Source: a virus
Virus record (IMG/VR): IMGVR_UViG_3300030430_004864
Span: 1 to 36,286 of that record
Direction: 5' to 3' (one strand)
DNA: 36,286 nucleotides
In this document: positions 8,397 to 34,863 of the stretch, piece by piece
Numbering within the stretch: the stretch's first letter is position 1
Layout: each line of letters opens with the position of its first letter
Made by a program: the position numbers and the translations under genes
Notes under the pieces: model-generated
The model's database searches: none
The model's input: the letters and a program-made list of their open reading frames with translations, nothing else
What the model was told of the DNA's origin: nothing

Positions 8397-8720
8397 ATGG
8401 AAAATAATTTAGAGTGGTATGCAAATTACTGCCACAGATTACAACGCATAAACTTCCAACGGCTTAAAGAATTGAAAAACAAAGGGATAGAACCACTTTA
8501 TCCTGATAAAAAAGTTAAACAGTACAAACTTAATGAATACATAAAACATTTAGGTATGGCTACATCTGTTGAAACTTTTGAAGTATCGCTCGCTACTATT
8601 AAGGCTTGGCGTTGGGGTTATAGAAAACCTAGCGTAAAACAAGCAAAAAGAATTATACAAAAAACCAACGGCAAACTTGATTACGAATCAATCTATGGTT
8701 GCCCGAATGATCTAAGTTAG
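8397..8720 (+). CDS. Helix-turn-helix DNA-binding regulator (107 aa)
   Basis: The C-terminal half (VETFEVSLATIKAWRWGYRK, then PSVKQAKRIIQKTNG) has the form of a Cro/YdaS-like helix-turn-helix: a recognition helix beginning SLATIKAWRWG and the turn 'Kps...a..i...tngk'. The N-terminal half is basic and Tyr/Asn-rich. ATG 8397 follows AAGGA. The stop TAG shares its G with the GTG start of the primase gene. It faces the Sak4 operon across a 76-base divergent region and probably regulates one or both directions. Confidence 0.68.
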   Translation: MENNLEWYANYCHRLQRINFQRLKELKNKGIEPLYPDKKVKQYKLNEYIKHLGMATSVETFEVSLATIKAWRWGYRKPSVKQAKRIIQKTNGKLDYESIYGCPNDLS

Positions 8721-10840
8721 TGTTCTCAATAAACTTTAGTGGCGAAGAATCTGTCTACGATTTAGCTATGTCCTATTATGATGAGGGTTTAGACGTAGTG
8801 CCTTTGCTAAGAAAAACAAAAAAACCGCCAAGTTTTTTCAAAGGTTGGGCTCACTTCAAAACTGACAGACCTAAAAGATCAGAGGTAGAAAAATGGTTTA
8901 AAGATCGGGACGACATGACAGTAGCATTAGTGTGTGGACAATTTATGGTAGTAGATGCTGATACACCAGAAGCTATGTCTTGGGTAGATAAAAATTTACC
9001 ACCATCACCTTATAGAGTCCGTACGGGTAAGGGCATGCATTATTACTATAACAATCCACAAAACTACACAACTTTTGCTACAAAAAGAACCAACGAAACA
9101 CCTATAGAAAGACATATTGATTTACGTGGCGAGGGTGGTTTGATAATAGCGCCATACAACAAACACGCTAATGGTCAAACTTATATGCCAATACAAAACC
9201 CAAACTGGGATTTATGGGGTTTCGAAGACTTGCCTGATTTTACTGAGAAAGAGTGGGTGCAAATTACTGGCAACAATAAAGTAAATGGCCAATCAACTGT
9301 AGCGCCTTTTTCTTTGAGTGGTGTCAATGAAGGATCTAGAAACGATCAAGCTGCACGACTAGCCGGTTATCTTATAAGCAAAAATTTAAATTTAGACTTT
9401 GCCAAATTTTTTATGGAAAGTTGGAATCAACAAAACTCACCACCCTTACCAAAACATGAAATATTGTCTGTAGTAGACAATGTAAAGAAAACACACGATA
9501 GAAAAAATCAACAAGCACCCCTGTTTGTACAAGCGACAGAAAACATAACACCACCAAAAAATCTATTTAGTCCACCAGGTATTTTAAAAAATATGTTTTT
9601 GTTTGCCGAAGAGATAGCACAAATTAGTCAACCTGAGTTAAGTTTAGTAGGGGCTATTAGTTTAGCTAGTGTCTGCTGTGGGCGTATGTATAGGACAGAT
9701 ATGAATAACTTTAGCAGTTTGTATTTTGTTGGCGTTGCTAAGTCGGGCCAAGGTAAAGAAAATATCAAAACTTTTGTTGAAGCTGTTCTTAATAAAACTA
9801 GACACTCTAAGATGATTGTAGGTGATGGTTACACTTCATCAGGAGCCGTTCACTCAACACTTAAATATAAACCTACACAAATAACTATTATGGATGAGTT
9901 TGGTAAAAGGCTAGAAAATATTTCTGCACAACAAAACACAAATGTAGAGAGCGGCATACAAACTTTAATGGAAGCCTGGGGTAGATGTCATGGTGCTTTA
10001 CGTCCTGATAACTACTCACTTATGAACACACCTGAACAATATGTAGAACAAACTATGAACCGCATTTGTTATAAACCGGCTATTACTTTAGTAGGTTTGT
10101 CTGTTCCAAAAAATTTTTATGGAGCTTTGAACTCTGGACGTGTGGCTGACGGTTTTTTAAATAGATTTTTAATTGTTGAATCTAAAGAACCACGTAAGGT
10201 AACTGCCCTTAAGAAATTCAAAAGACCGCCACAAAATATAGTAGATTGGGTTAATGCAATCAGGAAACCGCAAACTGATTTTGGTGACATAGCAGAAGAA
10301 AATTCACAAGTAGATGTAGGACAGAAAGTATTGGATTTTGATGAAGATAGTAGACAGTTGCTAAGTGAGTTTGCAGAAGAGATAGTGCGAAGACAAAACA
10401 TACTTGAAAAAGATAACTTAGAACCTTTGTTGTCAAGATCTCGGGAAAAAGCCATGAGACTTGCACTAATTTGTGCACTTGCTTGTGATGTTAAAGCTCG
10501 CAACATACAAAAGGAACATACAGAGTGGGCAATAGATTATGTTAGATATTACGATCTACTATTTATAGAAACATGCCGAGATAAAGTTGCTTCCTCTGCA
10601 ACAGAGGCAAAAATAAAATCTGTTTTATCTTACATTAGGACGAGGGGTGCTGAGGGTATCAGTAAAAGAGAAGTAGATAGACATGAATTATTTAGATCAA
10701 TGAAGTCATATGAAGTCAAAGAAATAATAGACCGGCTAAAAAATGCCGGTGAAATACAAGAAATAGAAGTAAAGGTTGGGGGAAAAGGACGGCCTACCAA
10801 AAGATTTGTAGCCGTTGATCCTAATTTTTATCAAGATTAA
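8720..10840 (+). CDS. Primase-polymerase / ATPase fusion protein (706 aa)
   Basis: Residues about 10-170 form an archaeo-eukaryotic type primase-polymerase domain: VVDAD (Asp79, Asp81), GKGMHYYY (His107), and HIDLRGEGGLIIAP (Asp134). A helical PriCT-like linker follows (about 200-262). Residues about 285-560 form a P-loop ATPase of the DUF3987 type with Walker A GVAKSGQGK (338-346) and Walker B ITIMDEFG (Asp392, Glu393). The last 70 residues look like a winged helix. It should prime phage replication and act as its helicase or loader. The start is GTG 8720, coupled to the regulator's stop. Confidence 0.82.
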   Translation: MFSINFSGEESVYDLAMSYYDEGLDVVPLLRKTKKPPSFFKGWAHFKTDRPKRSEVEKWFKDRDDMTVALVCGQFMVVDADTPEAMSWVDKNLPPSPYRVRTGKGMHYYYNNPQNYTTFATKRTNETPIERHIDLRGEGGLIIAPYNKHANGQTYMPIQNPNWDLWGFEDLPDFTEKEWVQITGNNKVNGQSTVAPFSLSGVNEGSRNDQAARLAGYLISKNLNLDFAKFFMESWNQQNSPPLPKHEILSVVDNVKKTHDRKNQQAPLFVQATENITPPKNLFSPPGILKNMFLFAEEIAQISQPELSLVGAISLASVCCGRMYRTDMNNFSSLYFVGVAKSGQGKENIKTFVEAVLNKTRHSKMIVGDGYTSSGAVHSTLKYKPTQITIMDEFGKRLENISAQQNTNVESGIQTLMEAWGRCHGALRPDNYSLMNTPEQYVEQTMNRICYKPAITLVGLSVPKNFYGALNSGRVADGFLNRFLIVESKEPRKVTALKKFKRPPQNIVDWVNAIRKPQTDFGDIAEENSQVDVGQKVLDFDEDSRQLLSEFAEEIVRRQNILEKDNLEPLLSRSREKAMRLALICALACDVKARNIQKEHTEWAIDYVRYYDLLFIETCRDKVASSATEAKIKSVLSYIRTRGAEGISKREVDRHELFRSMKSYEVKEIIDRLKNAGEIQEIEVKVGGKGRPTKRFVAVDPNFYQD

Positions 10841-10849
10841 GGAGTATTT

Positions 10850-11314
10850 ATGATTAAACCTAGTTTAGAAACAATAGACGATCAAAAAAGAGAAGAGCGG
10901 GTGGCAGGTTACTTAGAGGGTAAATGGGATGTAACTTGTCACAAGCTTCCAGTATCTTACGGTTTAGATTACTGGATAGAATCAAAAGAAAAAAGTTTTT
11001 GGTGTGAAGTAAAATGTCGTACCTTTGCTTACGATAAATATGATACTTTCATTTTATCAGCTGCAAAATTAGCGAAAGGAAGTGCATTTGCTAATGCTAC
11101 AGGTGTGCCTTTTATTATTGTTTATGCTATGACAGATGGATTGTATATGCATAAATGGCAAAAGAATCATAATTATGAAGTCATGATGAATTTATCACAA
11201 GATCCACAACACGTTGATGACAATGAGCCTTACATTCACATACCGAAAAATATGATAGAATGTATTAACGATTTACCATTAGGTATGGATAGGAACGAAA
11301 TAGGACTATGTTAG
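10850..11314 (+). CDS. PD-(D/E)XK nuclease, resolvase-like (154 aa)
   Basis: The N-terminal half carries the core YGLDYWIESKEKSFWCEVKC, with Asp40, Glu53 and Lys55 as the metal-binding D...ExK set, preceded by a helix with Glu15/Glu16. This is the layout of small archaeal-type Holliday-junction resolvases and VRR-like nucleases. It follows the primase by 9 bases with an AAGGAG site, so it probably cuts branched replication or recombination intermediates before packaging. Its stop overlaps the holin start. Confidence 0.7.
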   Translation: MIKPSLETIDDQKREERVAGYLEGKWDVTCHKLPVSYGLDYWIESKEKSFWCEVKCRTFAYDKYDTFILSAAKLAKGSAFANATGVPFIIVYAMTDGLYMHKWQKNHNYEVMMNLSQDPQHVDDNEPYIHIPKNMIECINDLPLGMDRNEIGLC

Positions 11315-11781
11315 ATATATTAAAAAATACTTTAGCGACTGTAGCACCAACATTAGGGCAAGCAGTAGGTGGGCCTTTAGGCGGAGCTGCTGCAAATATG
11401 ATTGCTAGTGTGCTTGGTTGTAAAGCAGAGCCAAAATCTATTGCACAGGCTATGCAAAACGCTACACCTGAACAGTTACTAGAACTTAAAAAAGCAGAAA
11501 AAGAGTTCGAAGTAAAAATGAAAGAGTTAGATGTAGATATTTATAAATTACAAACACAAGATATACAAAATGCACGAAGTGCTTTTTCGGGCGATTGGAC
11601 CTCTAAAATATTAGGGTTTATAACATTAGGTGGTTTTATGGGTTATATATTTTTAGTAACAATACAACCGCCAGAACAAAATAGTGAGGCTCTTATTAAC
11701 CTTGTGTTAGGTTACTTAGGTGGTTTGGCTAGTGCAGTCATATCCTTTTACTTTGGAGCATCACACAAAAAGGACGAGTAG
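11308..11781 (+). CDS. Holin, GTA-type 3TM family (157 aa)
   Basis: An N-terminal Gly/Ala-rich hydrophobic helix (about residues 8-36) is followed by a charged coiled helix (LLELKKAEKEFEVKMKELDV, then QDIQNARSAFSGDW) and two C-terminal membrane helices (ILGFITLGGFMGYIFLV; LGYLGGLASAVISFYFGA). The ARS-x(4)-DWTSKI and C-terminal FYFGASHKK are typical of the three-TM holins known from gene transfer agents and marine phages. The protein would open the inner membrane late in infection. Its stop codon lies inside the 5' arm of the hairpin at 11776-11852. Confidence 0.75.
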   Translation: MLDILKNTLATVAPTLGQAVGGPLGGAAANMIASVLGCKAEPKSIAQAMQNATPEQLLELKKAEKEFEVKMKELDVDIYKLQTQDIQNARSAFSGDWTSKILGFITLGGFMGYIFLVTIQPPEQNSEALINLVLGYLGGLASAVISFYFGASHKKDE

Positions 11782-11854: not shown

Positions 11855-12205
11855 ATGCAAGATATTGTCACTATAATCCAACAAGTAGGTTTTCCGATAG
11901 CAGCAGCTCTCGGACTAGGTTGGTTTATTTACAAGCTAATCATGCGTATTGTTGACGGTATGGAAAATAAATTAGATGTCGTTGACGAAAAGGTAGCTGA
12001 ACAAATAACCGCCATGGAACAAAGATTAGGTACAAAACTTGATTCACAACATGGTATCTTAGTAGCTTTGATTGACAGGATTAGAAGCCTTGACAACGAG
12101 ATCATTAGACAGGACACTTTAATTAAGACCATATTAGGTGTGCCACAATTAATTGATAGCAATAAGATAGCTAAGGCAGATAGAGATGACCAAAGAAAAG
12201 ACTAA
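11855..12205 (+). CDS. Holin-like membrane/coiled-coil protein (116 aa)
   Basis: An N-terminal membrane helix (VGFPIAAALGLGWFIYKLIM, about residues 10-30) is followed by a long coiled coil (residues about 38-85, DVVDEKVAEQITAMEQRL and so on). This shape is seen in BhlA/UviB-like small holins and other phage lysis accessory proteins. The start at 11855 is the only one that keeps the membrane helix, although it has no ribosome binding site and lies just behind the hairpin. It overlaps the csgF-like gene by 20 bases. Confidence 0.6.
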   Translation: MQDIVTIIQQVGFPIAAALGLGWFIYKLIMRIVDGMENKLDVVDEKVAEQITAMEQRLGTKLDSQHGILVALIDRIRSLDNEIIRQDTLIKTILGVPQLIDSNKIAKADRDDQRKD

Positions 12206-12686
12206 TTATAAAATGAGTGATTATTATAAGGATAAATACAAGAGGATGGGTTGTGCTGTTTACTTAATCCCGATCTTGGCACTTCCTGTCCTCGCCGATG
12301 AAATTAAATTTCAATTCAAATCACCATCATTTAGTGGTATAGGCACAAGCCAACACTATCTGACAATAGACGAGCAAGAATATACAAGACGAGAGGCATT
12401 AGAGGCAGAGATCAAGGCTATGCAAGATGAACTTGAGCGTGATGCACAAAATACAACGTTAGCCAGGTTCTTACGAAACTTTGAATCTAGAGTTTATGCC
12501 CAACTATCTAGACAGCTGGTGGATCAACTCTTTGGTGAAAATCCTGCTGAACAAGGTAGTTTTACTTTATTCGACAATCTTATAACTTGGACTACGGACG
12601 GCATAACTATTACAATGTCTATATTTAATGAAACAACTGGCGAAACAACTACTATTACTATTCCTATTGGGGACTTTGGCTTCTAG
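12186..12686 (+). CDS. csgF: CsgF-like curli assembly protein
   Basis: A signal peptide ending LALPVLA (cleavage after about residue 37) is followed by DEIKFQFKSPSFSG, the clear counterpart of the CsgF N-terminal segment (FQF-x-NP-x-FGG) that plugs into the CsgG channel. The C-terminal half ends with a strand pair (TDGITITMSIFNETTGETTT) matching the CsgF C-terminal domain. In curli systems CsgF forms a second constriction on the CsgG pore and anchors nucleation at the surface. The start at 12186 gives an unusually long charged n-region; ATG 12246 would give a short standard signal peptide and may be the real start. The last 59 bases also encode the start of CsgG. Confidence 0.85.
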   Translation: MTKEKTNYKMSDYYKDKYKRMGCAVYLIPILALPVLADEIKFQFKSPSFSGIGTSQHYLTIDEQEYTRREALEAEIKAMQDELERDAQNTTLARFLRNFESRVYAQLSRQLVDQLFGENPAEQGSFTLFDNLITWTTDGITITMSIFNETTGETTTITIPIGDFGF

Positions 12687-13473
12687 TTGTACTACACACC
12701 TATCTTACATATCACCATGCTTAACTAATCCTGATAACGATTATAAAGATGTTGTTACTATTGTTGGTAAGGCAGAGTGTTTCTCCAAAGCAGCTTTTAT
12801 TAATGAACCTGTAACTGATGCAATAAAAAATTTACCAAAACCAGCACAAAGACCAGTGGTAGCCGTATATCAGTTTCCTGATGCTACAGGACAAAGAAAA
12901 TCTATTGACGGCTTTGCAAGTTTTAGTTCGGCCCTAACTCAAGCTCCAGAAGCTTACGTTATCAGAGCTTTGAAACAATCTAAATTTTTCAGGGTAGTAG
13001 AACGGGTAGGTATAGATCACGTGACTCGTGAAAGGCAGATTATTAGGTCTACCAGAGAAAAGTTTGATGAAGAGACACAACAGATGCCTTTGTTGTTTGC
13101 AGGACTAATTATTGAAGGTGCTTTGATAGATTACAATACTAATCTTCTAACCGGTGGTGTAGGTGCTAGATATTTAGGTATTGGTAACTCAAAACAATAT
13201 CGTGAAGATACTGTTATTGTTTCTATGCGGGTTGTATCGGTGTCGACTGGTGAAATATTATTAGAAAATTTAACAACAAAAACTATTTTATCTGTTGGTT
13301 TATCTAATGATTTTTTTCGGTATATTGCTGATGGTACGAAGCTAGTTGAGTTTGAAACCGGTAATGCTATGAATGAAAGTAAGTCTATAGCTTTACAAGC
13401 AGCAATAGAAACTGGTATTGTAGATATTGTGGCTCAAGGTATTGATAAGGGCTACTGGGAATATATGAAATGA
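12628..13473 (+). CDS. csgG: CsgG-like outer-membrane secretion lipoprotein
   Basis: This 281-residue protein has a lipoprotein signal (LLLLFLLGTLASSC, lipid on Cys21) and the CsgG body: VVAVYQFPDATGQ (77-89), ALKQSKFFRVVERVG, TGGVGARYLGIG (175-186), VVSVSTGEI, TKTILSVG and AAIETGIVDIV near the end. CsgG forms a nonameric barrel that exports unfolded curlin across the outer membrane. By eye the constriction loop aligns with Phe kept but the Asn and Tyr replaced (SIDGFASFS). Compared with E. coli it ends a little earlier and has about 20 extra residues, including Cys31 and Cys51, after the lipid anchor. It overlaps csgF by 59 bases and the curlin gene by 4. Confidence 0.92.
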   Translation: MKQLAKQLLLLFLLGTLASSCTTHLSYISPCLTNPDNDYKDVVTIVGKAECFSKAAFINEPVTDAIKNLPKPAQRPVVAVYQFPDATGQRKSIDGFASFSSALTQAPEAYVIRALKQSKFFRVVERVGIDHVTRERQIIRSTREKFDEETQQMPLLFAGLIIEGALIDYNTNLLTGGVGARYLGIGNSKQYREDTVIVSMRVVSVSTGEILLENLTTKTILSVGLSNDFFRYIADGTKLVEFETGNAMNESKSIALQAAIETGIVDIVAQGIDKGYWEYMK

Positions 13474-14192
13474 CTATGCGTATAATTTTTTTACTTTTAT
13501 CTTTTGGTTTATTGGCAGACGATGAGATATTCGTTGAGCAAACTGGTTCGAATGCTACTATCAAATTAGAACAGCTTGGTAGTAATAACATAATTGGTGG
13601 CACAAGTGCTGTTTCCGGCACTATGACTGCTTTAGACTTGGATGGTACAGATATGACTCTCACTATTAATCAAATAGGAAGTAGCAATATATTTAGATCA
13701 GATGGCATAAATTCAGATAACGTTACAGGTTATTTTGATTTTCAAGGAGATTCTAACGTGCTTGATATCTTGTTGAACAGTAATGGTGCATATTCAGCAG
13801 ATTACGCCAATCTAAATGTACAGGTCTCAGGTGGAAGCAATATTTTCGATATTGAAATAGGTGAAGCATCCAACGCCGATTATTTAGACTTAGATTGGAT
13901 TATAGATGGAGATAACAACGATTTTGAATTTGATATTGACTACGAAAATGCTACTAACTATGTAGATGTTTTTGGAGATGGCAATGAACTTACTTTCGTA
14001 GGAAGTGGTTATGCCGGCACAAGTGCCAGCGATAGTGGTTATTTTTATTTAGATTTAGATGGTAGTTCAAACACTTTTACTATTACACAATCATCAACCC
14101 TAGCTAGAGACTGGCTCAAGATTACAACAAATGGATCTAATTCGATATTTTGTGTGGTACAAAGTGACGGTGGGACTTCTACTACATGCTAG
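13470..14192 (+). CDS. Secreted curlin-repeat protein (240 aa)
   Basis: A short signal peptide (IIFLLLSFGLLA) is followed by an acidic Asn/Ser/Gly/Asp-rich protein with nine G-x-x-N or GSN turns at residues 26, 37, 70, 93, 121, 147, 169, 198 and 222, mostly 22-33 residues apart, close to the curlin repeat length. The first repeats keep the curlin Gln pattern (EQTGSNATIKLEQLGSNN; INQIGSSN). It ends CVVQSDGGTSTTC, with the only two Cys of the mature chain near the C terminus. It is probably the substrate of the CsgG/CsgF pore and may assemble as amyloid-like fibre. ATG 13470 overlaps the csgG stop; ATG 13476 is an alternative. Confidence 0.78.
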   Translation: MTMRIIFLLLSFGLLADDEIFVEQTGSNATIKLEQLGSNNIIGGTSAVSGTMTALDLDGTDMTLTINQIGSSNIFRSDGINSDNVTGYFDFQGDSNVLDILLNSNGAYSADYANLNVQVSGGSNIFDIEIGEASNADYLDLDWIIDGDNNDFEFDIDYENATNYVDVFGDGNELTFVGSGYAGTSASDSGYFYLDLDGSSNTFTITQSSTLARDWLKITTNGSNSIFCVVQSDGGTSTTC

Positions 14193-15216
14193 TAGTATAG
14201 GGGACATTACTGAACTTAGAGGTTACGGGCAAATAATTAGAGATGAGCCTTTTCCTGCGGTTCTAAATTTTAATATTAATTCTTATGATGACGTGCAGAC
14301 TAGAGCTGGACGTATCGGTATTACTTTTTTAGATAACTCTACCGTCAAACTAACAGAACATTCTTCACTAATAATTGATGAATACATATATGATGCTAAT
14401 CCAAGTAATAGCAAAATGGCTCTTCAGTTTGCTAGTGGCACTATCCGTTTCATTTCAGGCAATCTAAATAAAAGTAACATAACCCTGAAAACACCAACCG
14501 CTGATATTGCAGTTAGAGGTACCGATTTTACTTGCACTGTAGATGAAACAGGCAAATCTTTGATAATACTTTTACCAAATGAGTTTGGCGATCCTAGTGG
14601 AGAAATAGTGGTATCTACAGCTATGGGCCAAGTAATTCTTAACAAACCGTATCAAGCTACTACCACTAGAGTTTATGAAAAAAGTCCGAGCAAACCAGTA
14701 ACATTAGATATAGATTTACAGTTTATAGATAACATGTTAATTATTAGTCCACCTAAAGAGGAAAGTTTACCTGGCGAAGAGGCAACTAATAAAACCCAAG
14801 ATTACTTAGATTTTACTGATTTAGACGTAGATTTTTTGGAAGAAGACCTGTTGGAAGAAGACGCTGATTTTGAGTTTACTGAGTTAGATATAGATTATTT
14901 GAACGTAAATTTTTTAGAAGATCTTTTAGACATTTTAGATTTATTAGAAGAGGAGCAAGAAACAGAATTATTGGGTTCAGTGGCAGGGGTTGACATACAA
15001 GGCACACAAATCGGCCAGGATCTTGAAACTAACATTACAACGATTATTGATGGCAGCACAATCAGACTAATACGCAAGGTCACACAAAATGCAGAATTTA
15101 GTTTGAACTCTGATCAAGCTTATACCGTAACTTTCACGCAAGATGGGGTAACAAGAACCGTTAAAATAAATGGTGGCAACGAATCCAATATAACAGTAAT
15201 ACAAAACTCAGGATGA
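14131..15216 (+). CDS. Periplasmic FecR-domain protein (361 aa)
   Basis: After a weak N-terminal signal (VTVGLLLHASS) comes a FecR domain of about 150 residues, ending with the diagnostic TPTADIAVRGTDF (121-133). Then follows a beta-rich stretch and an acidic region (about 220-285) with two diverged copies of an F-T-D/E-L-D-x-D-F/Y-L motif, and a final beta domain with VTFTQDGVTRTVKING. FecR domains act in the periplasm as sensors or surface-associated adaptors and are often encoded next to CHASE2-cyclase genes, as here. The first 62 bases overlap the curlin gene in another frame; the ATGA at the end couples it to the cyclase. Confidence 0.8.
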   Translation: MDLIRYFVWYKVTVGLLLHASSIGDITELRGYGQIIRDEPFPAVLNFNINSYDDVQTRAGRIGITFLDNSTVKLTEHSSLIIDEYIYDANPSNSKMALQFASGTIRFISGNLNKSNITLKTPTADIAVRGTDFTCTVDETGKSLIILLPNEFGDPSGEIVVSTAMGQVILNKPYQATTTRVYEKSPSKPVTLDIDLQFIDNMLIISPPKEESLPGEEATNKTQDYLDFTDLDVDFLEEDLLEEDADFEFTELDIDYLNVNFLEDLLDILDLLEEEQETELLGSVAGVDIQGTQIGQDLETNITTIIDGSTIRLIRKVTQNAEFSLNSDQAYTVTFTQDGVTRTVKINGGNESNITVIQNSG

Positions 15217-16970
15217 GATTTAAAATATTCACAGTTTTATTAGGGTTATTAACGATACCTTTAGCCACTCAGTCGGTTCCTAGCGAAATATTAAAGCTTA
15301 AAGTTTTTGATGCTTTTGTTGAGAAACATAAACCAAGCGAATACTTTACTATAATTAATATTGATGAATCTACTATTCAAGCTGAGGGTGGTTGGCCTTT
15401 ACCAAGATCTAGAATAGCTGAGATAACAGAAGAAATATTTGCAAATGGTGCAATAGGGGTAGGTTGGGTGTTATCATTTGTAGATAAAGATAGGTTTGAG
15501 AATGGTGGTGATGACTACCTCTTAGAAAAGTTAATATCATATCCCTCAGTTGTTGCCACTTTCTCTTACGACAATCAGGAATATCCAAAGCCAGAAGGCA
15601 CAGTAATCTTAGGCGAAGATGCTCCAGGTATTTTATTAGAAGGTCATTTACCAAATATACCTGGTATGTCTGAGGCAAGCTTAGAGGGTATTGTCTCTGC
15701 ACCTGTTGACGTTGATAACTTAGTAAGACGGCTACCTCTGATGTATCGAATACCTGACGGCTGGGTACCAAGCTTTGGCACACAAGTATATAAATTACTA
15801 ACAGGATCTGATACGTATGTCATCAAAACCAACGAATACGGTTTAGAAGAAATAAGAGTAAAAGGTATACCACCTGTCAAGGTAGACAGCTTAGGTCGAA
15901 AGTGGATCAGTTGGGTTGATACACCTGAAACAACTTTGTCTGAAATGCAAGTTGCTAATAAATTTGTATTTGTTGGGGTAACTGGTAAAGGCATAATGCC
16001 GAAAGTTGCAACAAGCTCAGGTGAATTATTAGAGCCTCACAAAATTCAAGCTGCTTTAGCTGAGTCAATCCTGATTCCAAACTCACCATATATACCAGAT
16101 TGGCATTTACCTGTGGAGTTGTTAATTTTAGGATTTTTTTGTCTTCTTATTTGGGTTCTAACGCAATCTTTTGCAGTTACAGGTGGTTTGATAAGCTTTT
16201 TTACAATATTTTTGTCTACTGGCTTTGTAGGGCTTCAAATGATAGGTAGAGGCATTTTGATAGATTTTTCCTATACTTTGGTGTCAGAATTTATTGTTGG
16301 AGCTGTTTCTTTCTATTTGAACTTCGCACAACAGTATAAATTAAGACAACAAATCAAAAAACAATTTGAACATTATTTAGACCCAAAACAAGTCAAACGT
16401 TTGCAAGACAATCCTGAGTTGTTGAAGTTGGGTGGTGAAAAAAGATATTGCACATTTTTATTTACAGATGTGCGTGGTTTTACTGCTTTATCAGAAAAAC
16501 TGGATCCGCAACAAGTTACTGAGATTATGAACAAGGCCTTGACCATTCAAGCTAATGCTGTCCAAAACAACGGGGGTATGGTCGATAAATATATTGGTGA
16601 TGCTATGATGGCTATATTCAACGCACCTTTAGATCAAGATAATCATGAAGACGCAGCTATACAAACAGCGCTTCAAATACGACACGACATAAAAGCAGCA
16701 GAGTTAGGTATTGAAATTGGTATAGGGATAAATTCAGGGCCAGCTGTTGTAGGTAATATGGGGTCAGATTCACGTTTCGATTATACAGCAATCGGTTCTG
16801 ATGTGAATTTAGCTGCAAGGTGTGAGTCTAGTTGCAAAGCCGTAGGACAAGATCTAGTAATAGCAAAAAATACGGCAAAAGCATCTAGCTATAAACTAAA
16901 AAAATTAAAACCTGTTGAAATGAAAGGTATTGCTGAACCGGTAGAAATATATACTAAGGACTTACTATAG
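15213..16970 (+). CDS. CHASE2-sensor class III adenylate cyclase (585 aa)
   Basis: Order of parts: N-terminal signal-anchor helix, a periplasmic CHASE2 domain (about 25-295, with INIDE, then WPLPRSRIAEI), three membrane helices (about 300-317, 320-340, 352-370), a short linker helix, and a class III cyclase domain (about 408-585). Catalytic residues are all present: metal Asp419 (FTDVRGF) and Asp463 (YIGD), purine-selecting Lys459 and Asp523 (FDYTAIG), and transition-state Asn532 and Arg536 (VNLAARCE). The Lys/Asp pair predicts ATP, so the product is cAMP. CHASE2 would respond to a periplasmic cue, plausibly the FecR protein encoded just upstream. Its stop lies inside the end of the opposing virion gene. 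Confidence 0.93.
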   Translation: MRFKIFTVLLGLLTIPLATQSVPSEILKLKVFDAFVEKHKPSEYFTIINIDESTIQAEGGWPLPRSRIAEITEEIFANGAIGVGWVLSFVDKDRFENGGDDYLLEKLISYPSVVATFSYDNQEYPKPEGTVILGEDAPGILLEGHLPNIPGMSEASLEGIVSAPVDVDNLVRRLPLMYRIPDGWVPSFGTQVYKLLTGSDTYVIKTNEYGLEEIRVKGIPPVKVDSLGRKWISWVDTPETTLSEMQVANKFVFVGVTGKGIMPKVATSSGELLEPHKIQAALAESILIPNSPYIPDWHLPVELLILGFFCLLIWVLTQSFAVTGGLISFFTIFLSTGFVGLQMIGRGILIDFSYTLVSEFIVGAVSFYLNFAQQYKLRQQIKKQFEHYLDPKQVKRLQDNPELLKLGGEKRYCTFLFTDVRGFTALSEKLDPQQVTEIMNKALTIQANAVQNNGGMVDKYIGDAMMAIFNAPLDQDNHEDAAIQTALQIRHDIKAAELGIEIGIGINSGPAVVGNMGSDSRFDYTAIGSDVNLAARCESSCKAVGQDLVIAKNTAKASSYKLKKLKPVEMKGIAEPVEIYTKDLL

Positions 16971-24111: not shown

Positions 24112-27100
24112 TTACTTATTCTCCTTTAATTCTTTTATTTCTGCTTTGAGATCAGCAATAACGGCTAATAAATCTTTATAGCCGTCCATATCCTCTAATC
24201 CTTTAGGGGTATGTGAGTCTTTTTCTAACCTTTCTATCTGTTCTTGTTGTTCTTGTACGGCTTTTAATAAAGGTGTGACTAGTTTGGTATAGTCCATTTG
24301 ATAGTATCCATCTGCATTTTTTGTAACTGCATTTGGGATATACTTCATAACTTCTTGAGCTAACAAACCTTGGTCTCTTTGACCAGTTGCTACCCATTTA
24401 AAATCTACAGGATTTAAAGCTTGAACAATACTTAAGCCTTCTGCATGACCTGTAACTTCTTTGAGTCTAGCATCTGAAGATGTGTTAAAAGCGGTTGCTG
24501 AACCCGTACATTTTATGCTACCAACCTCAGTATTACTGCTATTTAAAAAAGCGTAGTGTGGTCTGCTAGTACTACTTGCTGAACCTGTGTGTTTGCTAAT
24601 TACTGCTGCTCTATCATCTGTCGAAGCAAACTCAAACATAGCAGTATTTGAAGAGCTACCTGAGTTTTTGACTTTTAGATTTTCACCAAATGTCCTTGAT
24701 GTATCTCCTATTAACAAAGCGCCATTAGAAGCTAATCGCATTTTTTCATTTGTACTAAACTTAAACTGTATGACAGAATCATCTAAGACAATATTTGGTG
24801 ATCCACCAAAACCAACTAATGTCAGGCTTTCATCATCATCTGCAACACTACCCACTCTAAAACCACTACTGTATTCAATTAAATCAAGCGAGTTTATCAA
24901 GTATTTGCCTGAAGATGGTACAGATACACTACCGCCAAAATTAGCGGCATTTGAACTTCTATTTAGATCTAAAATAGTTGTAGAACCATCAAAAAAGCTG
25001 AAGTTCTCACTTCCTGCACCAGTCATACCTATACGAAATATCTGATTATCACTTTCATCAGTAAAAGCCATTTGTGCTCGACCAGAACTAGAACTACGTT
25101 TTATGGTTAAGGCTGTTGCTGTAGTGCTTGAGGCTTTTATTCTTGTATCACCTACAACATCTAACTGAACTGCTGGGCTGGTTGTCCCTAGCCCCAAGCG
25201 GCCTGCTGAAGTAAGCCGCATTTTTTCTGTTGTTGCCCCTGACCCATCAGATGTAGTACCAAATATTAATCTACTTGGCGCATCACCATCCGCTACTGTT
25301 GCTTCTGCTTGATAGCCGATAAAAGCCATTTCCTCGAAGTCAGTACCATCGAAGCCATTCATCCTTATAATGCCACCCTGATCCGCAGGTAGAGCAGAAC
25401 TTGTACTGCTGTTGTCTCTTGCTCTTAGTTCTAATAAATTAGCAGTACCATCTCTTTGTCCTTCTATAACTACCGAACCATTAGGTGAAGCAGGGTTGCT
25501 TGTATCTATGACGTGTAGCTTCTGAGCAGGACTAGTTGTGCCAATTCCAATATTGCCACCATTAGGGTTTAGAGCTAAATTCCTAAAAGCTACACCCTGC
25601 TCAACTGCTTGTATTTGACCATAATCAGAAGAATGAAAACCAAGTATTAGTTGTTCATTAGTGTTTGATGCTCTTTTGATGACAAGTTGTTCATTACCGC
25701 CATCTGTTTGTATAGTGGTAACACCTGCAAAAGTAGCATTACTGTTACTACCTAGAGTTAAAACTGGTGTACCTTCACTTGTTGCTGTCGTGCTTGAAGA
25801 TTTAGATATAAATAAATCTCTGTCATTACCAAAAACTATATGGGTATCTTTCCCTGACCCTGCTCCACTTAGAAATAAAGTGCCATCATCATCGGATGAG
25901 ATAGCTGCAATTATTTTATCGCCTGATCCTGATGCTGTTATATCACCTACAACATCTAATTTAGAAGAAGGACTGTTTGTGTTGATACCAACATTCCTGT
26001 TAGTACCATCAATAAACATAGCAAGAGCATTTCCTATATTAAATTGTTGATAATTAAAAGTATCTATTACTAAAGGTTTAGATTGCCAAGTTTCTAAAAG
26101 AGCTATATTACTACTTGTGTTATAAGATAAAGTAACACCAGCTTCACCTGTGTGTCCTGTGCTTCTATTAGTTGCTTTTATAGAACCAGCAACTTCTAGT
26201 TTGGCTAAAGGTGAAGTATCTCCAATCCCAAAATTGAAACTATTATTGATAAAAGAATTATCATTTTGATTTAAATTAATTTTAACTGCACCTGAGTGGT
26301 AAAGTTGGAAATTATTAGCATCAGCAAATTCTGCAACTTTAGTTCCTGAGTTATAAAATACTAAACCACCAAAAGAATCAGTACCAATTTGATATGATTC
26401 ACCACCACTATTTTCTTCAATTTGCAAAGCATACCCAGAACTATTTGTTTTAACATGAAGTGGTGTATTAGGCGAGGTTGTGCCGATACCTAGGTTGCCT
26501 GATGTATCAAACCTAGCGCTTTCAAATGCTCCACTTGTGTTTTCTTTAGAAAAGACCAACGCACCTGTTGATGTGTTATTACCAGATGATATTGTCATTA
26601 CGCCGTTATCGTGTGTGATTTTAGCCGTACTAGAAGTAGAGTTAGAATCTCTTAGTAAAATTTGCGGCGTAGATTGTCCGTTAGCGGTAGATTCGATAGT
26701 GCCCTCTACATCTAATTTAGAAGAAGGACTGGTTGTGCCGATACCTACGTTGTCACCATAAGGATTCAATAGTAAAGGATCAGTTGTGCCATTAGATCGA
26801 CCCGCTTGAATAGCACAAGCATCTGTCGAAGAGTTAGCGTAACCCATATACAAACCATATTCATTAGAATGGTTTACAACAGACCTTAAGGTAGCGTTAG
26901 ATATAAAAGCACTAAAGTCAGATGGTGTTGATGTGCTGCCACCTTTAACGTGTAGAGCGGAACTAGGACTGCTTGTGCCTATACCTACATCTCCACCATT
27001 AAAGTAACTATCACCTGCTGTAGCTATTTGTACTGTTTGTGTAGCTGAAGCGTTTTTAAGGAATAGTGATAAACCTACCGAACCTGATTGGAAGAAACCG

Positions 27101-30100
27101 CCCCCATCAGTACCGTCGTTATAATCTAAATTTACTAGATAACTACCTGAAGAACCGCTTACTATATTTAACTTACCTGTTGGACTGGTTGTGCCGATAC
27201 CAAGACCTGTCGAAGTAAGTCGCATTATTTCAGAACCACTAATATTGAATTGTTGTGTTAAAGCATCTAGTTTGAAATTCATATAAGCACTAGCTGTTCT
27301 GTCATAGTTGGTCAGTCTGTTAGTATCTGTAGTTAGTTCTGGATGAAACTCCATACCTGCTGCTCCACCATTAGAAACAACTAATGGTGCTGAAGGGCTG
27401 GTTGTGCCGATACCTACTCGTTGCGAACTGTCTATAGTTGCAGCAATCTGGTCGTTGGTTCTGAATGACATGCTGTTAGCAGTATGATCGTAAAATATCT
27501 CACCACTATTAGGGTCAGCATTATCACCAAAAGCGAGTACTCCGTAGCGTTTACCATTACCTCTTAATGTAATACCCACGCCATCATCTGCTGAGTTACC
27601 ACCTAAAACAACCAAATCTTCAGCAAAACTATAACCTTGTCCATCAGGGTCAGTAGTATTAATACCTACTTTGCCTGTAGCTGTAAGCTGTGCTGCAAAG
27701 GTGGCACTTTGATCTGACCCTAAAGTTAAAGCTGTTGCAGTTGAACCATTTCCACCTGTACTAAAAATTAAGGCATCACCACCCATAATTCTTGAATCAA
27801 AATCATCAGAGGTAGAATTTTTAAAATCTATAAATGGGCCACCAGCACTTCTAGTAATTTCTAATGCTCCATTAGTGACTGCAAGTAAGACTTGGTTTGA
27901 ACCTGAAGTTAGAGTTATGTCACCAGTACCAGCATAAGTACCGATATTGGTGAGGTTTCTTGAAGCTGTAATTACTTCGCTACCTGCGACTTCTACTGCC
28001 CCTGTTGAATTTACTCTAAAGTAATGACCTGAAGCATTTTCACATCTAATTGCATAACCACTATCTTTTCTTATGTCTAGCCTTGCAGAAGCAGTTGTGT
28101 TTCCTATAGATAAATTTCCATCACTATCCAGTCTCATTTTTTCAGAACCTTCAAAGAAAAATCCTAAATCTGAATCATCTGTTCCTTGTCTTATTCCAGC
28201 AATATGAATATCTGCATCATTATTTCTAAGATGCAACATAGCCATAGTGCCATTTGTACTGCTGGTATTTTCAATTCTGATACCCTCACTACCCCAAGCA
28301 CCACCAGAACCACCAGAGAAAGAAGTATCTGTATTTGCAAACTCAACATGAAATTTTTGATCTGGTGCATTTGTACCTATACCCAAGTTACCAGAGGCAT
28401 CAAATCTAGCAGATTCTACTGTTGTAGTTGCTGTTCTTCTTTTAAAAACAATTTGTCCAGCTGCGGTATTATTATTAGATTCAATCGACATAATGCCGTT
28501 ATCGTGATAGATGTTTGCACTTATAGAAGTGTTAGCTGAATCTACTAAAGTAAAATGTTTTTCGGAAAGACCATTTGCGGTTGCTTGTATAACTCCAGCA
28601 ACTTCTAGCTTTTGTGAAGGTGACGTAGTGCCTATGCCAAGGTTACCTGAACTGTCTACTCGTAGACGTTCAGAAGAACCATCTAAAATACCAAAAGCAG
28701 CATTAGCGTTATTAAATATACTGCTAGTTTGGCTGCTTGAACCAAGAACTATTTCAACTTGTGAATTTGTTGTTTGAATATGAAGTTCTTGTGAAGGTGA
28801 CGTAGTGCCGATACCAATATTTCCAGAGTTATCAAAGTGCATTAAAGTCTTTGGACTTCCTGCTGCACCATCTACTTTTTTGACTTGTAAGTTACCATCA
28901 TTATTGGCAGCAAATTCTGTAGCTAACACAAACCTGTCAGCACTACTGTTATAAACTAAACCTAGTAAATCTCCTGACCCACCTGTACCTGTACCTCTGA
29001 TAGTTAAGGGTTCATTAGGTGCTGTTGTACCTATACCTACTTTAGAATCTTCCGTAATTCGCATGACCTCTGTCACAGTTCCAGCATTAGCAGTATGGAA
29101 TGATAAGTCACCACCTTGTCCTGAGTTTGTATTTGTTTCTACATCTGCTCGTATTCTTGCATACATTTCTTCAGTGCCATCGGCAGTATTAAAGCTGAAG
29201 TCTAAACCTGAAGCAGCAGAAACAGATGAATTAGGTCTATGTAAATTTAATAAACTCAATTGATCAACCCTGACATCAAGTGCTGAGGCTGGCGAAGTGG
29301 TTCCAATCCCTACTCTTTGTGAACTATCTACTCTAAAAGCTTCCGATCCTGCTGTTTCAATCGTTACTGTATCGGCACTAGGAAATCTAAAAAAAGTGTT
29401 GCTATCGCCTGTATGTCCTAGTTTATCGGCTATAGTCACATCACCAGCTACATCTAGACCACCACTTAAGTTTGTATCATTAGAAACTGTTAATTCATCA
29501 ATAGTTGATGCACCTGATGTCTGTATAGACGGTGTGGTAATTTTATGAGAAAAATCAAACTCGTCGTTTGTACTATCCCACAAGATAGTAGCGTCTGTTG
29601 ATGCACTTACTGCGTCTTGTATGGTTATACCTGCCCCGTTAGCGTTAGACGAGGTATCTCCAGCACCAAAATTTAACGTGATGTTTTTATCTTTTACTTC
29701 TAGGTTAGTAGTATTGATAGTAGTAGTTGTACCTGAAACCGTTAGATCGCCTGAAATAGTGACATTACTAGCAAAAGTTGCTGAACCGGCATCAGACATA
29801 TCTAATGTCAGAGCGGTTATAGCGCTACTGTCGTCAACACCTTTAAAAATAATATCTTTATTATTGACACTAGATTTAATTATAAAATCACTCGAAGAAT
29901 TAGTTAGCTCACCAAAGGTTGTCCCAGCATCTTTTAATAAAATGTCTGCGCCGTCTGCATCTAAAATAATATCGCCACCAGAATCTAACGTGATATCTGT
30001 ACCATCATTTGTAATTGTGTCTAGAGCAATAGAACCTACGTTTGTAATATTGTTATCGTTGAAAGAAGTAGCTCCTAACGAAATAGTACCTGTAGCGGTT

Positions 30101-30909
30101 AAATTTGAAGAGCCGATATCTATTGCACCGAAACCAGAACTAATTGCACCAGAATCTAACGTACCTACAGTTGTTATTTGAGACTGTGCAGCATCAACAG
30201 AAAGAGTGACGTTATTGCCTGATGCACTAGAAGTCAGACCTGTACCACCTAAAATACCTAATACTTCGCTGTTAAGGTCGATCGCTATACTCGCAGAACC
30301 GTCAGTAACATCTAAATCCTCGGCAGTTATTTGTGTATCTACAAAGTCTTTAACAGCAGCAGAGGTCGGTACACTAGTATCATTATCGTTGGATGCAATA
30401 CCCTCTGATTCTGTCACAATAGCAGAAGCTTTGAAGTTATCTATTTCTATATTTGATAATGTATTATTATCAACATCTATAGTCTTGTTGGTTAAAGTTT
30501 GAGATCCTACTAAAGTTGCTACTGTAGAATCTATTGCAAAAGTAACACCATTACCTGAAGCTGTAGCGGTTAATCCTGTACCCCCTAGCAAGGATAGAGT
30601 TTCACTAAATAGATCTATTGCAATACTGCTGGAACCATCTGTTATGTTTAATGTGATAGCACCTGTAGATGATATGTTTTGAAAAGCAGAACCATCCCAA
30701 TACTGTAAAGTCGTAGTAGAAGTGTTATAGATGATCTGACCTATATTAAAGTTCAGAGTGTCTCTTTCAGCCGTTGTAAGCTGTAAAGTGTTATCAGGAT
30801 CAACCGAGCCTAAATTTATTTCTAAGACCCTTACAAGTTGGTTGAAGGTCTCAGATGTGACATTAGGGCCTTGAGCAAAGGGTAAATTAGTTTGTAGCAG
30901 TTTAGCCAC
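24112..30909 (-). CDS. Giant tail fibre with S74 chaperone domain (2265 aa)
   Basis: The N-terminal part (about residues 1-550) has repeated modules with GGTGL, VTDGSASIAIDL and LTNKTIDVDNN signatures and probably attaches to the tail. The central shaft has about 17 copies of a V/L-G-I-G-T-T-S-P-x(3)-L motif spaced roughly 70-120 residues apart. The C terminus (about 2145-2265) is an intramolecular chaperone of Peptidase_S74 type: SDARLKEV with the catalytic Ser, GLLAQEVMKYIP, and a final coiled coil (LLKAVQEQQEQIERLEKD). Such domains trimerise the fibre and then cleave themselves off. This is the main receptor-binding candidate. Confidence 0.88.
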   Translation of the reverse strand: MAKLLQTNLPFAQGPNVTSETFNQLVRVLEINLGSVDPDNTLQLTTAERDTLNFNIGQIIYNTSTTTLQYWDGSAFQNISSTGAITLNITDGSSSIAIDLFSETLSLLGGTGLTATASGNGVTFAIDSTVATLVGSQTLTNKTIDVDNNTLSNIEIDNFKASAIVTESEGIASNDNDTSVPTSAAVKDFVDTQITAEDLDVTDGSASIAIDLNSEVLGILGGTGLTSSASGNNVTLSVDAAQSQITTVGTLDSGAISSGFGAIDIGSSNLTATGTISLGATSFNDNNITNVGSIALDTITNDGTDITLDSGGDIILDADGADILLKDAGTTFGELTNSSSDFIIKSSVNNKDIIFKGVDDSSAITALTLDMSDAGSATFASNVTISGDLTVSGTTTTINTTNLEVKDKNITLNFGAGDTSSNANGAGITIQDAVSASTDATILWDSTNDEFDFSHKITTPSIQTSGASTIDELTVSNDTNLSGGLDVAGDVTIADKLGHTGDSNTFFRFPSADTVTIETAGSEAFRVDSSQRVGIGTTSPASALDVRVDQLSLLNLHRPNSSVSAASGLDFSFNTADGTEEMYARIRADVETNTNSGQGGDLSFHTANAGTVTEVMRITEDSKVGIGTTAPNEPLTIRGTGTGGSGDLLGLVYNSSADRFVLATEFAANNDGNLQVKKVDGAAGSPKTLMHFDNSGNIGIGTTSPSQELHIQTTNSQVEIVLGSSSQTSSIFNNANAAFGILDGSSERLRVDSSGNLGIGTTSPSQKLEVAGVIQATANGLSEKHFTLVDSANTSISANIYHDNGIMSIESNNNTAAGQIVFKRRTATTTVESARFDASGNLGIGTNAPDQKFHVEFANTDTSFSGGSGGAWGSEGIRIENTSSTNGTMAMLHLRNNDADIHIAGIRQGTDDSDLGFFFEGSEKMRLDSDGNLSIGNTTASARLDIRKDSGYAIRCENASGHYFRVNSTGAVEVAGSEVITASRNLTNIGTYAGTGDITLTSGSNQVLLAVTNGALEITRSAGGPFIDFKNSTSDDFDSRIMGGDALIFSTGGNGSTATALTLGSDQSATFAAQLTATGKVGINTTDPDGQGYSFAEDLVVLGGNSADDGVGITLRGNGKRYGVLAFGDNADPNSGEIFYDHTANSMSFRTNDQIAATIDSSQRVGIGTTSPSAPLVVSNGGAAGMEFHPELTTDTNRLTNYDRTASAYMNFKLDALTQQFNISGSEIMRLTSTGLGIGTTSPTGKLNIVSGSSGSYLVNLDYNDGTDGGGFFQSGSVGLSLFLKNASATQTVQIATAGDSYFNGGDVGIGTSSPSSALHVKGGSTSTPSDFSAFISNATLRSVVNHSNEYGLYMGYANSSTDACAIQAGRSNGTTDPLLLNPYGDNVGIGTTSPSSKLDVEGTIESTANGQSTPQILLRDSNSTSSTAKITHDNGVMTISSGNNTSTGALVFSKENTSGAFESARFDTSGNLGIGTTSPNTPLHVKTNSSGYALQIEENSGGESYQIGTDSFGGLVFYNSGTKVAEFADANNFQLYHSGAVKINLNQNDNSFINNSFNFGIGDTSPLAKLEVAGSIKATNRSTGHTGEAGVTLSYNTSSNIALLETWQSKPLVIDTFNYQQFNIGNALAMFIDGTNRNVGINTNSPSSKLDVVGDITASGSGDKIIAAISSDDDGTLFLSGAGSGKDTHIVFGNDRDLFISKSSSTTATSEGTPVLTLGSNSNATFAGVTTIQTDGGNEQLVIKRASNTNEQLILGFHSSDYGQIQAVEQGVAFRNLALNPNGGNIGIGTTSPAQKLHVIDTSNPASPNGSVVIEGQRDGTANLLELRARDNSSTSSALPADQGGIIRMNGFDGTDFEEMAFIGYQAEATVADGDAPSRLIFGTTSDGSGATTEKMRLTSAGRLGLGTTSPAVQLDVVGDTRIKASSTTATALTIKRSSSSGRAQMAFTDESDNQIFRIGMTGAGSENFSFFDGSTTILDLNRSSNAANFGGSVSVPSSGKYLINSLDLIEYSSGFRVGSVADDDESLTLVGFGGSPNIVLDDSVIQFKFSTNEKMRLASNGALLIGDTSRTFGENLKVKNSGSSSNTAMFEFASTDDRAAVISKHTGSASSTSRPHYAFLNSSNTEVGSIKCTGSATAFNTSSDARLKEVTGHAEGLSIVQALNPVDFKWVATGQRDQGLLAQEVMKYIPNAVTKNADGYYQMDYTKLVTPLLKAVQEQQEQIERLEKDSHTPKGLEDMDGYKDLLAVIADLKAEIKELKENK
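24680..29330 (-). repeat. Tandem GIGTTSP-type repeats in the tail fibre gene
   Basis: Within the fibre gene about 17 diverged copies encode GIGTTSP or close variants (GIGTTAP, GINTNSP, GLGTTSP, GIGDTSP). At DNA level a string such as GGCACAACCAGTCC recurs on the coding strand. Copies are irregularly spaced, consistent with a repeated beta shaft module rather than a simple tandem repeat. Near-identical copies at 26700-26760 and 26460-26500 could recombine. Confidence 0.75.
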
Positions 30910-32826: not shown

Positions 32827-33273
32827 TTAGATGTGCAAAATATCTGATTCCATCATGTTTGCTAAGTCATTTGCTCGTCCTTTGACTTGTTTAGCCCATT
32901 TGCTATCTAACATTTGCTTAGCTGCTTCTTCGTAATCTTTTGCGTGTATTGCGTATAACATGTTGTTAAATTTAAACAACCTATTGCCTAAGTTGAAATA
33001 CATATTAATTAAAACTATTTTTCTTGTTTCTGATAAGTCTTTAAAACAATCTATTTGAGCGTTAAGTATTTTTATACAGTTTTTTACATCATTTCTAAGA
33101 AGATACTCGGCTTCTTCTTGCGATATACCACCCCCTAGTCTTTCATCTATCAGTCTGCCGTAACCAATAGTTAAATATTTTTCTGGGGTAGAGTCTTCGT
33201 AAGCATGAGAGACAAAACCCTCATGTAATTTTAGCTGTTCACAAACTTTTTGTTCTAAATTATCACTTATCAT
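32827..33273 (-). CDS. T4-type lysozyme endolysin (148 aa)
   Basis: The protein shows the full T4 lysozyme triad: Glu18 in LHEGFVSHAY, Asp27 in YEDS, and Thr35 in YLTIGYGRL. Downstream helices include ISQEEAEYLLRNDV and LINMYFNLGNRLFKF, typical of glycoside hydrolase family 24. It cleaves peptidoglycan between MurNAc and GlcNAc. No signal peptide is present, so release needs holins, such as the two encoded at 11308-12205 or the small membrane proteins encoded just upstream. ATG 33273 overlaps the previous stop. Confidence 0.9.
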   Translation of the reverse strand: MISDNLEQKVCEQLKLHEGFVSHAYEDSTPEKYLTIGYGRLIDERLGGGISQEEAEYLLRNDVKNCIKILNAQIDCFKDLSETRKIVLINMYFNLGNRLFKFNNMLYAIHAKDYEEAAKQMLDSKWAKQVKGRANDLANMMESDILHI

Positions 33274-33810: not shown

Positions 33811-34863
33811 TTAAATTGCAGTAACAACCAAGGCACCTGCATTACTGACAGTAACACGATATTGAGTACCATTTGCTGATTTTAACACTACACCTTTGTC
33901 GGCGGTAAGAATATTCAAATCCCCTGCTGAATTTAAAGTAGCTTGTGTTGTAATACCTTTTTTGAAAGAAAATGCAGAACCAGCGGTAAAAGTCATAGTG
34001 TCATCTGCATCATGTGTATAAGTTATTTTACCCTCGTCAGGATCGGATGGGTGGCCAAAACAAAAAAATCCTGTGGCATCATTTGCTGAAATAATTTGTA
34101 TACCGCTATCGCCACCACCTTCTACTATCAACTCTGTTGCACCTGATGTTGGAGTAAAAGAACCAGCATCCGAACTTTTTATATGCAAATTACCAAGAGG
34201 TACAGTTTCACCTATACCAACCCTACCATTTGTTGCCAAAGATAAATCTGTATTTGTGCCTAATGTGCTACCTCTGCCTAATTGTAATGTGTCGTCTGTG
34301 TCATCTAATCCTAAGTAATAATCTTGAGCATTACCATCAAATATTACTTTTGTATCTTCTGCCCCACCATCTCCTATTGTTAAAGTTGGAGTTGTACCTG
34401 TAATTTTTACTGAATCTGTTAAAACTACATCTGTTAGAACTGAGACAATATTAGCAGAACTGCCGCCACCGTCAGAATAAACTGCCATAACAGAACCGTT
34501 AGCGATAGTGACATTAGAGCCTGAGCCTTGACTAATAATTATATTGTATGGGCCACCACTACCTGAATCTGTCGTAGCGTTCTCAATAAACCAAACTTTG
34601 CTAACAGTATTAGGAGCTAGAGTGATTGTACAATCGCTGTCTAATGCACCTGTGTATTTTAAGTACAAAGACCTGCCAGGATCAGTTGCACCATCTGCTA
34701 TCGTGGTAGTATGTGTGTCAGCATTTGTGGTTATGGCTTCTGTACCAAAACTAAATGCTTCAGCTACTAGTGATAAATTTGTGTTAGTAGAAGTACCCCA
34801 AGTGCCTGACTCAGCGCCTGTAGCTATTTCTTTGAGTCTTAAATCGTTATTATAACTAGCCAT
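33811..34863 (-). CDS. Tail-fibre-like structural protein (350 aa)
   Basis: The N terminus (YNNDLRLKEIATGAESGTWG, then TSTNTNLSLVAEAF) is a frequent opening of marine phage fibre or structural proteins. The middle is a Thr/Ser/Gly-rich beta region, and residues near 210 carry one copy of the GRVGIGETVPLGNL repeat that also builds the giant fibre. The end is strand-rich. It may be a short fibre or an adaptor for the long fibre; no chaperone domain is present. Confidence 0.6.
   Translation of the reverse strand: MASYNNDLRLKEIATGAESGTWGTSTNTNLSLVAEAFSFGTEAITTNADTHTTTIADGATDPGRSLYLKYTGALDSDCTITLAPNTVSKVWFIENATTDSGSGGPYNIIISQGSGSNVTIANGSVMAVYSDGGGSSANIVSVLTDVVLTDSVKITGTTPTLTIGDGGAEDTKVIFDGNAQDYYLGLDDTDDTLQLGRGSTLGTNTDLSLATNGRVGIGETVPLGNLHIKSSDAGSFTPTSGATELIVEGGGDSGIQIISANDATGFFCFGHPSDPDEGKITYTHDADDTMTFTAGSAFSFKKGITTQATLNSAGDLNILTADKGVVLKSANGTQYRVTVSNAGALVVTAI

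Follow-up and report, generated by a model that had tools for sequence, protein, structure and literature searches.

The window analyzed here, positions 1 to 36,286 of IMG/VR virus record IMGVR_UViG_3300030430_004864, contains a curli-like module: genes for a small membrane protein (H2), homologs of CsgF and CsgG, a curlin-repeat protein (CUR), a FecR-domain protein, and an adenylate cyclase (AC). The last five had been described in an earlier note as overlapping genes on one strand, and both the open reading frames and profile searches confirm them. The overlaps are 59 base pairs (bp) for csgF and csgG, 4 bp for csgG and CUR, 62 bp for CUR and the FecR gene, and 4 bp for the FecR gene and AC. 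Matches to the Pfam families CsgF (3e-16), CsgG (1.2e-46), FecR (1.9e-12), CHASE2 (2.4e-26) and Guanylate_cyc (1e-19) are all above the curated cut-offs; the curlin family was reached only through relatives of CUR.

The case for a module depended on its gene order being found in related phages, and that order recurs in 140 viral loci with distinct CsgG. In this set each gene was counted only where the flanking DNA sufficed. CsgF is present in 127/127 loci, H2 in 127/127 (33 of which have two copies), CUR in 122/122, and the FecR-domain protein in 110/111. AC lies on the same strand in 66 of 78 loci and is inverted in 3 more, an apparent lack in one locus (L084) being a masked-base artefact. 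Searches in the reverse direction recover CsgF in 76/76 and CsgG in 72/72 loci starting from H2, and CUR in 65/65 and CsgG in 59/59 starting from FecR; these reverse searches kept the closest 80 loci and so cover near relatives. Because of these per-gene counts, the conserved core is H2-CsgF-CsgG-CUR-FecR, and AC is optional. In comparisons with sister phages the ratio of nonsynonymous to synonymous substitution rates (dN/dS) is far under 1 for every module gene, with dS so close to saturation that the ratios are rough. A chimeric assembly is rejected: more than 100 independent contigs show this gene order, and it is shared by independent contigs with CsgG identities of 70-99%.

Table. Genes of the curli-like module and the gene preceding it in the window
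Feature	Position	Strand	Description
H1	11308..11781	+	Holin-like protein with two transmembrane spans (phrog_1544); neighbor of the module, not core
H2	11855..12205	+	116 amino acids; N-terminal membrane span and likely cytosolic coiled coil; obligatory first module gene, one or two copies
csgF homolog	12186..12686	+	Predicted secreted; conserved N-terminal CsgG-binding segment FxFxSPxFxG; Pfam CsgF
csgG homolog	12628..13473	+	Predicted lipoprotein outer-membrane channel; podovirus-type N-terminal extension; Pfam CsgG
CUR	13470..14192	+	Curlin-repeat protein, predicted secreted; candidate fiber subunit; C-terminal residue Cys
FecR-domain protein	14131..15216	+	FecR domain in the periplasm, followed by a disordered acidic linker and a beta domain whose C-terminal tail is curlin-like
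AC	15213..16970	+	Inner-membrane adenylate cyclase of class III (IIIb-type) with CHASE2 sensor

H2 is a previously unrecognised, obligatory part of the module. It has one membrane span and an apparent coiled coil, is the slowest-evolving protein of the module (dN 0.01-0.04 against sister phages), and among 50,697 phages is found by tblastn only in records that carry csgG (Melnitz and HTVC008M). The earlier note had read both genes upstream of csgF as holins. This stands for H1, which is holin-like; H2 belongs to the curli module. Its members do match the holin family phrog_4898 weakly (4e-5), and a generic holin is ruled out by the restriction of the tblastn matches to csgG-carrying phages. 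H1 is a generic phage protein and not part of the core. It matches phrog_1544 at 3.8e-26 and GTA_holin_3TM at 0.015, and has hydrophobic spans at residues 101-119 and 129-147. Matches to it occur in 65 phage records, and among the listed relatives a single one carries a holin annotation. Its place varies: in several lineages it precedes H2 or follows AC, and others lack it.

From position and copy number, H2 appears to be the gene or genes labeled "histidine kinase" in PMC9599517. No histidine-kinase domain and no conserved histidine were found in 31 H2 members, and HATPase_c is absent from 15 phage records (the window, 12 related contigs, and the genomes of HTVC008M and Melnitz); the 14 control genomes were all positive. 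A histidine kinase upstream of csgF is therefore rejected, and the label should be dropped if the two are the same gene.

The CsgF homolog keeps the segment FxFxSPxFxG, which corresponds to the N-terminus of the mature E. coli protein, the part that docks in CsgG. In an alignment of 25 sequences P47 and F49 are invariant and G51 is almost so. The true start of csgF may be an internal ATG at 12213 or 12246. Residues 66-279 of the CsgG homolog align to E. coli CsgG structures at 3e-44 in a PDB search, a lipobox-type cysteine is present in 9/9 aligned sequences, and the window protein is 44% identical to that of HTVC008M and 39% identical to that of Melnitz. The N-terminal extension of CsgG in the window lineage (12628-12800) has two extra conserved cysteines and is absent from the myophages; a C..C..C[YF]SK pattern occurs in 69 of 146 CsgG sequences. 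Compared with E. coli CsgG, the constriction loop that follows the DxTGQ motif has one additional residue. The common podovirus patterns keep the equivalent of Phe56 and differ at the Tyr51 and Asn55 positions, and HTVC008M has Leu at Phe56.

That the phage export module carries its own candidate substrate, as had been proposed, is supported by CUR. The curlin repeat family Curlin_rpt is matched by 17/35 CUR relatives (best 8.6e-6), and the phage CUR profile detects curlin proteins of bacterial operons whose genes are next to csgG (best 2.6e-9). For these two reasons the curlin assignment holds at the level of the family; for the window protein alone it is weak. The AlphaFold2 (AF2) model of CUR is all-beta with repeated short strands (predicted local distance difference test score, pLDDT, 84), and the conserved residues are Q24, Q35, N40, Q68, N73, Q207 and Q231. 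CUR is under strong purifying selection. Searches of CUR, CsgF and FecR against PDB sequences by phmmer and profiles returned nothing useful. A C-terminal cysteine is present in 119/154 CUR proteins. In podovirus lineages the FecR signal peptide is encoded out of frame within the 3' end of CUR (14131-14192 in the window), and the extra CUR tail ends in the conserved cysteine. In HTVC008M and Melnitz the FecR gene starts at or near the CUR stop, whereas in the window it starts 62 bp inside CUR; the HTVC008M start is 3 bp past CUR, which has no extra tail. One phage has an additional curlin-repeat gene upstream of csgF (L146:6743-7531).

Behind a signal-peptide-like start, the FecR-domain protein has its FecR domain, which a disordered acidic linker joins to a beta domain at the C-terminus. 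All 39 members match PF04773 at E <= 1, and the model of the domain matches structures of FecR/PupR and anti-sigma type (9e-5 to 3.5e-4). The protein has no cytoplasmic anti-sigma domain, membrane span or other Pfam domain; about 20 signal-peptide-like residues precede the conserved part. A role as an iron regulator is rejected, as the anti-sigma part is missing. No FecI-type sigma factor or FecA-type receptor was recognised among the window proteins scanned, a subset of the open reading frames. The gene always follows CUR, and the last glutamine of the protein is invariant across all members. Its C-terminus aligns to the C-terminus of CUR with a score of 26; 20 column shuffles gave at most 13.8, and other FecR segments or other families at most 17.6. 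This hints that the FecR-domain protein, like CsgB, may anchor or nucleate the fiber subunit. A role solely as partner of AC is rejected, FecR being kept in loci without AC.

The cyclase is, as judged by its residues, catalytically intact and of class IIIb type. Among 35 sequences, D419, K459, D463 and R536 never vary, 32 have T or S at position 525, and 32 have N532; aligned with PaCyaB and CyaC, the window AC holds all six catalytic positions (D419, D463, K459, T525, N532, R536). In the phage loci L117, L119, L135 and L157 AC is inverted and separated from the other module genes, and in L117 and L119 it adjoins a small heat-shock-like gene.

This module has been described before. CsgF and CsgG genes were reported in pelagimyophages, where "sibling capture" was proposed (PMC7029224, 2020). 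The same module was then found in nine HTVC023P-type podovirus genomes and in re-examined myophages, where it was described as CsgF, CsgG, CsgA/B, FecR and AC behind one or two "histidine kinases", commonly with another CsgA/B ahead of AC, and expression of its genes was detected in ocean metatranscriptomes (PMC9599517, 2022). The substrate and sensor-cyclase, thought in the earlier note to make a fuller system than those known, are therefore not new; the window is a further member of a published group, and what is added here are corrections and testable predictions. The published pelagiphage systems are of a related lineage, resemble the window in the order small gene(s)-CsgF-CsgG-curlin-FecR-(second curlin)-AC, and lack CsgE; they often have a second curlin gene, whereas the window has one. 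The myophages HTVC008M (Pelagibacter) and Melnitz (Methylophilales) have all the module genes of the window in the same order but differ in carrying H2 twice and in having another curlin-repeat gene, located between FecR and AC.

The phage set is the curli core with phage-associated additions. With E. coli curli (csgBAC, csgDEFG) it shares the CsgG and CsgF homologs and curlin repeats of Q/N-G type; CsgE, CsgC, CsgD and a separate CsgB are not seen, in agreement with the note for CsgE, CsgB and CsgD, and H2, FecR and AC are added. In alphaproteobacterial operons CsgF, CsgG and curlin genes are adjacent, as in the phages, and loci of this kind without the additions are the ground for calling them additions: H2, FecR and AC were not found beside csgFG in three alphaproteobacterial csgF loci (18 kilobases examined) or in a Polaromonas locus, a small bacterial sample, CsgF being present in only 4/289 alphaproteobacterial genomes.

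The phage of the window probably belongs to, or lies near, the HTVC023P-type podovirus group. The window itself lacks terminase and portal genes, and this placement is based on a sister contig from its lineage (68% identity in the tail stabilisation protein), whose terminase is 56-60% and portal about 52% identical to those of HTVC023P, HTVC027P and 023Pt_psg01. It is a marine podovirus whose hosts are probably SAR11 bacteria. CsgG occurs in 2/148 SAR11-family genomes, both times on phage contigs that also carry the cyclase. Since CsgG is otherwise absent from the sampled genomes, the phage would bring a new function to its host, and phages of what are probably the most abundant bacteria of the ocean carry a secretion system that their hosts lack.

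Taken together, the module is probably a phage-borne, remodeled type VIII (curli) secretion system that places a curlin-like coat or fiber on infected cells. During infection the Sec system of the host would export CsgF, CsgG, CUR and the FecR-domain protein. CsgG would form the outer-membrane pore and CsgF its cap, and CUR would be threaded outwards to fold as a fiber or coat of curlin-type beta-repeats. With a C-terminal tail like that of a curlin, the FecR-domain protein probably anchors CUR or nucleates it, the job of CsgB, and does not act in iron regulation. H2 may be an inner-membrane coiled-coil part for assembly or control, and, where present, the CHASE2 cyclase would sense something periplasmic and make cyclic AMP (cAMP). 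The coat would most likely change the surface of the infected cell, with a block to superinfection and cell-cell adhesion as equal candidates for the benefit to the phage. What the sequences themselves establish is the content, order and linkage of the genes, their conserved residues and purifying selection; secretion, fiber formation, the roles of FecR and H2 and the gain for the phage are interpretation.

Several observations weigh against this interpretation. No clumping was seen of cells infected with Melnitz, itself a carrier of the module (PMC9004378, 2022), and the host of the window phage is itself inferred. The window CUR matches Curlin_rpt only at 0.069, under the Pfam cut-off, and its model finds nothing among PDB folds at E <= 0.001, the CsgA fibril 8enq scoring E = 0.41. 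The link between FecR and CUR comes from a single comparison of profiles, with a modest probability of 23% (E 9e-4). No separate CsgB was seen, and CsgE had no match among the module proteins in the Pfam scan; CsgE is an accessory and not an essential component of type VIII secretion (PMC7029224).

A stronger form of the same idea, to which we give clearly less credence, is that the module is a distinct, virus-specific type VIII secretion system. H2 would be an inner-membrane coiled-coil component confined to phages with this module, and a FecR-curlin hybrid would take the place of CsgB in anchoring or nucleating the fiber. Where present, the CHASE2 cyclase would monitor export and respond by making cAMP, for which the host has no known receptor.

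The pore formed by CsgG and CsgF could itself be the product, depolarising or permeabilising the outer membrane and helping to time lysis, as proposed for Melnitz (PMC9004378). The holin-like gene directly upstream in the window lineage, and downstream of AC in others, fits this proposal, as does the weak resemblance of H2 to a holin family. We regard it as unlikely. H1 is generic and often does not adjoin the module, and the endolysin gene of the window is elsewhere, on the opposite strand (32827-33273). CsgF is kept, and CUR, retained in every locus counted, is under strong purifying selection, which favors export of CUR over pore-only functions as what is probably selected. PMC9004378 argues that csgA/B are absent and states that fiber genes are missing; yet the Melnitz record (L083, MZ577097) has two curlin-associated repeat proteins annotated beside csgG, at 8689-11483. 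Release of virions through the pore, raised in the earlier note, is also unlikely given the retained substrate and the argument in PMC7029224 that the pore is too narrow.

It is similarly doubtful that FecR and the CHASE2 cyclase are a separate envelope-sensing pair that travels with the curli operon, with cAMP acting on host gene expression. The pairing has cellular precedent, because in 5/30 CHASE2-cyclase loci of alphaproteobacterial genomes a FecR gene lies within about 1.4 kilobases with no csgG near, in the short flanks available. A FecR-domain gene is a target of a cAMP regulator in Sinorhizobium (PMC5498481), and the catalytic residues of AC are intact. However, the retention of FecR in loci that lack AC ties it to CUR and not to AC. 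Class III cyclases occur in only 2/98 sampled SAR11-family genomes (metagenome-assembled genomes), both on a phage contig with the module. Domains that bind cyclic nucleotide monophosphates (cNMP) occur in 7/98, only one of them of CRP size, and no phage-encoded cAMP receptor was found in the 15 phage records. In a SAR11 host the product of AC would have no obvious receptor. The suggestion that cAMP tunes the host is thus weakly founded, since receptors are nearly absent from the sampled SAR11-family genomes and AC is optional, and a receptor is needed before this branch is called host control.

Least probable is a pore through which scarce nutrients or cofactors (iron siderophores, B12) are taken up, FecR serving as iron sensor: uptake has been suggested (PMC9599517, PMC7029224) and a FecR domain is present, but that domain directly follows the signal-peptide-like segment, with no anti-sigma domain or membrane span, and the substrate CUR is always kept.

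The counts of promoters and terminators do not exceed those in shuffled sequence, and tRNA and Rfam searches gave no matches. A 1499-bp record named as a Salmonella phage (OR851715.1) has a CsgG match at 37% and is likely a bacterial fragment. The window also encodes a tail-fiber-like protein of 2265 amino acids (24112-30909), whose C-terminus reads as an intramolecular-chaperone type from its sequence only, and a second, related fiber-like gene is located at 33811-34863.

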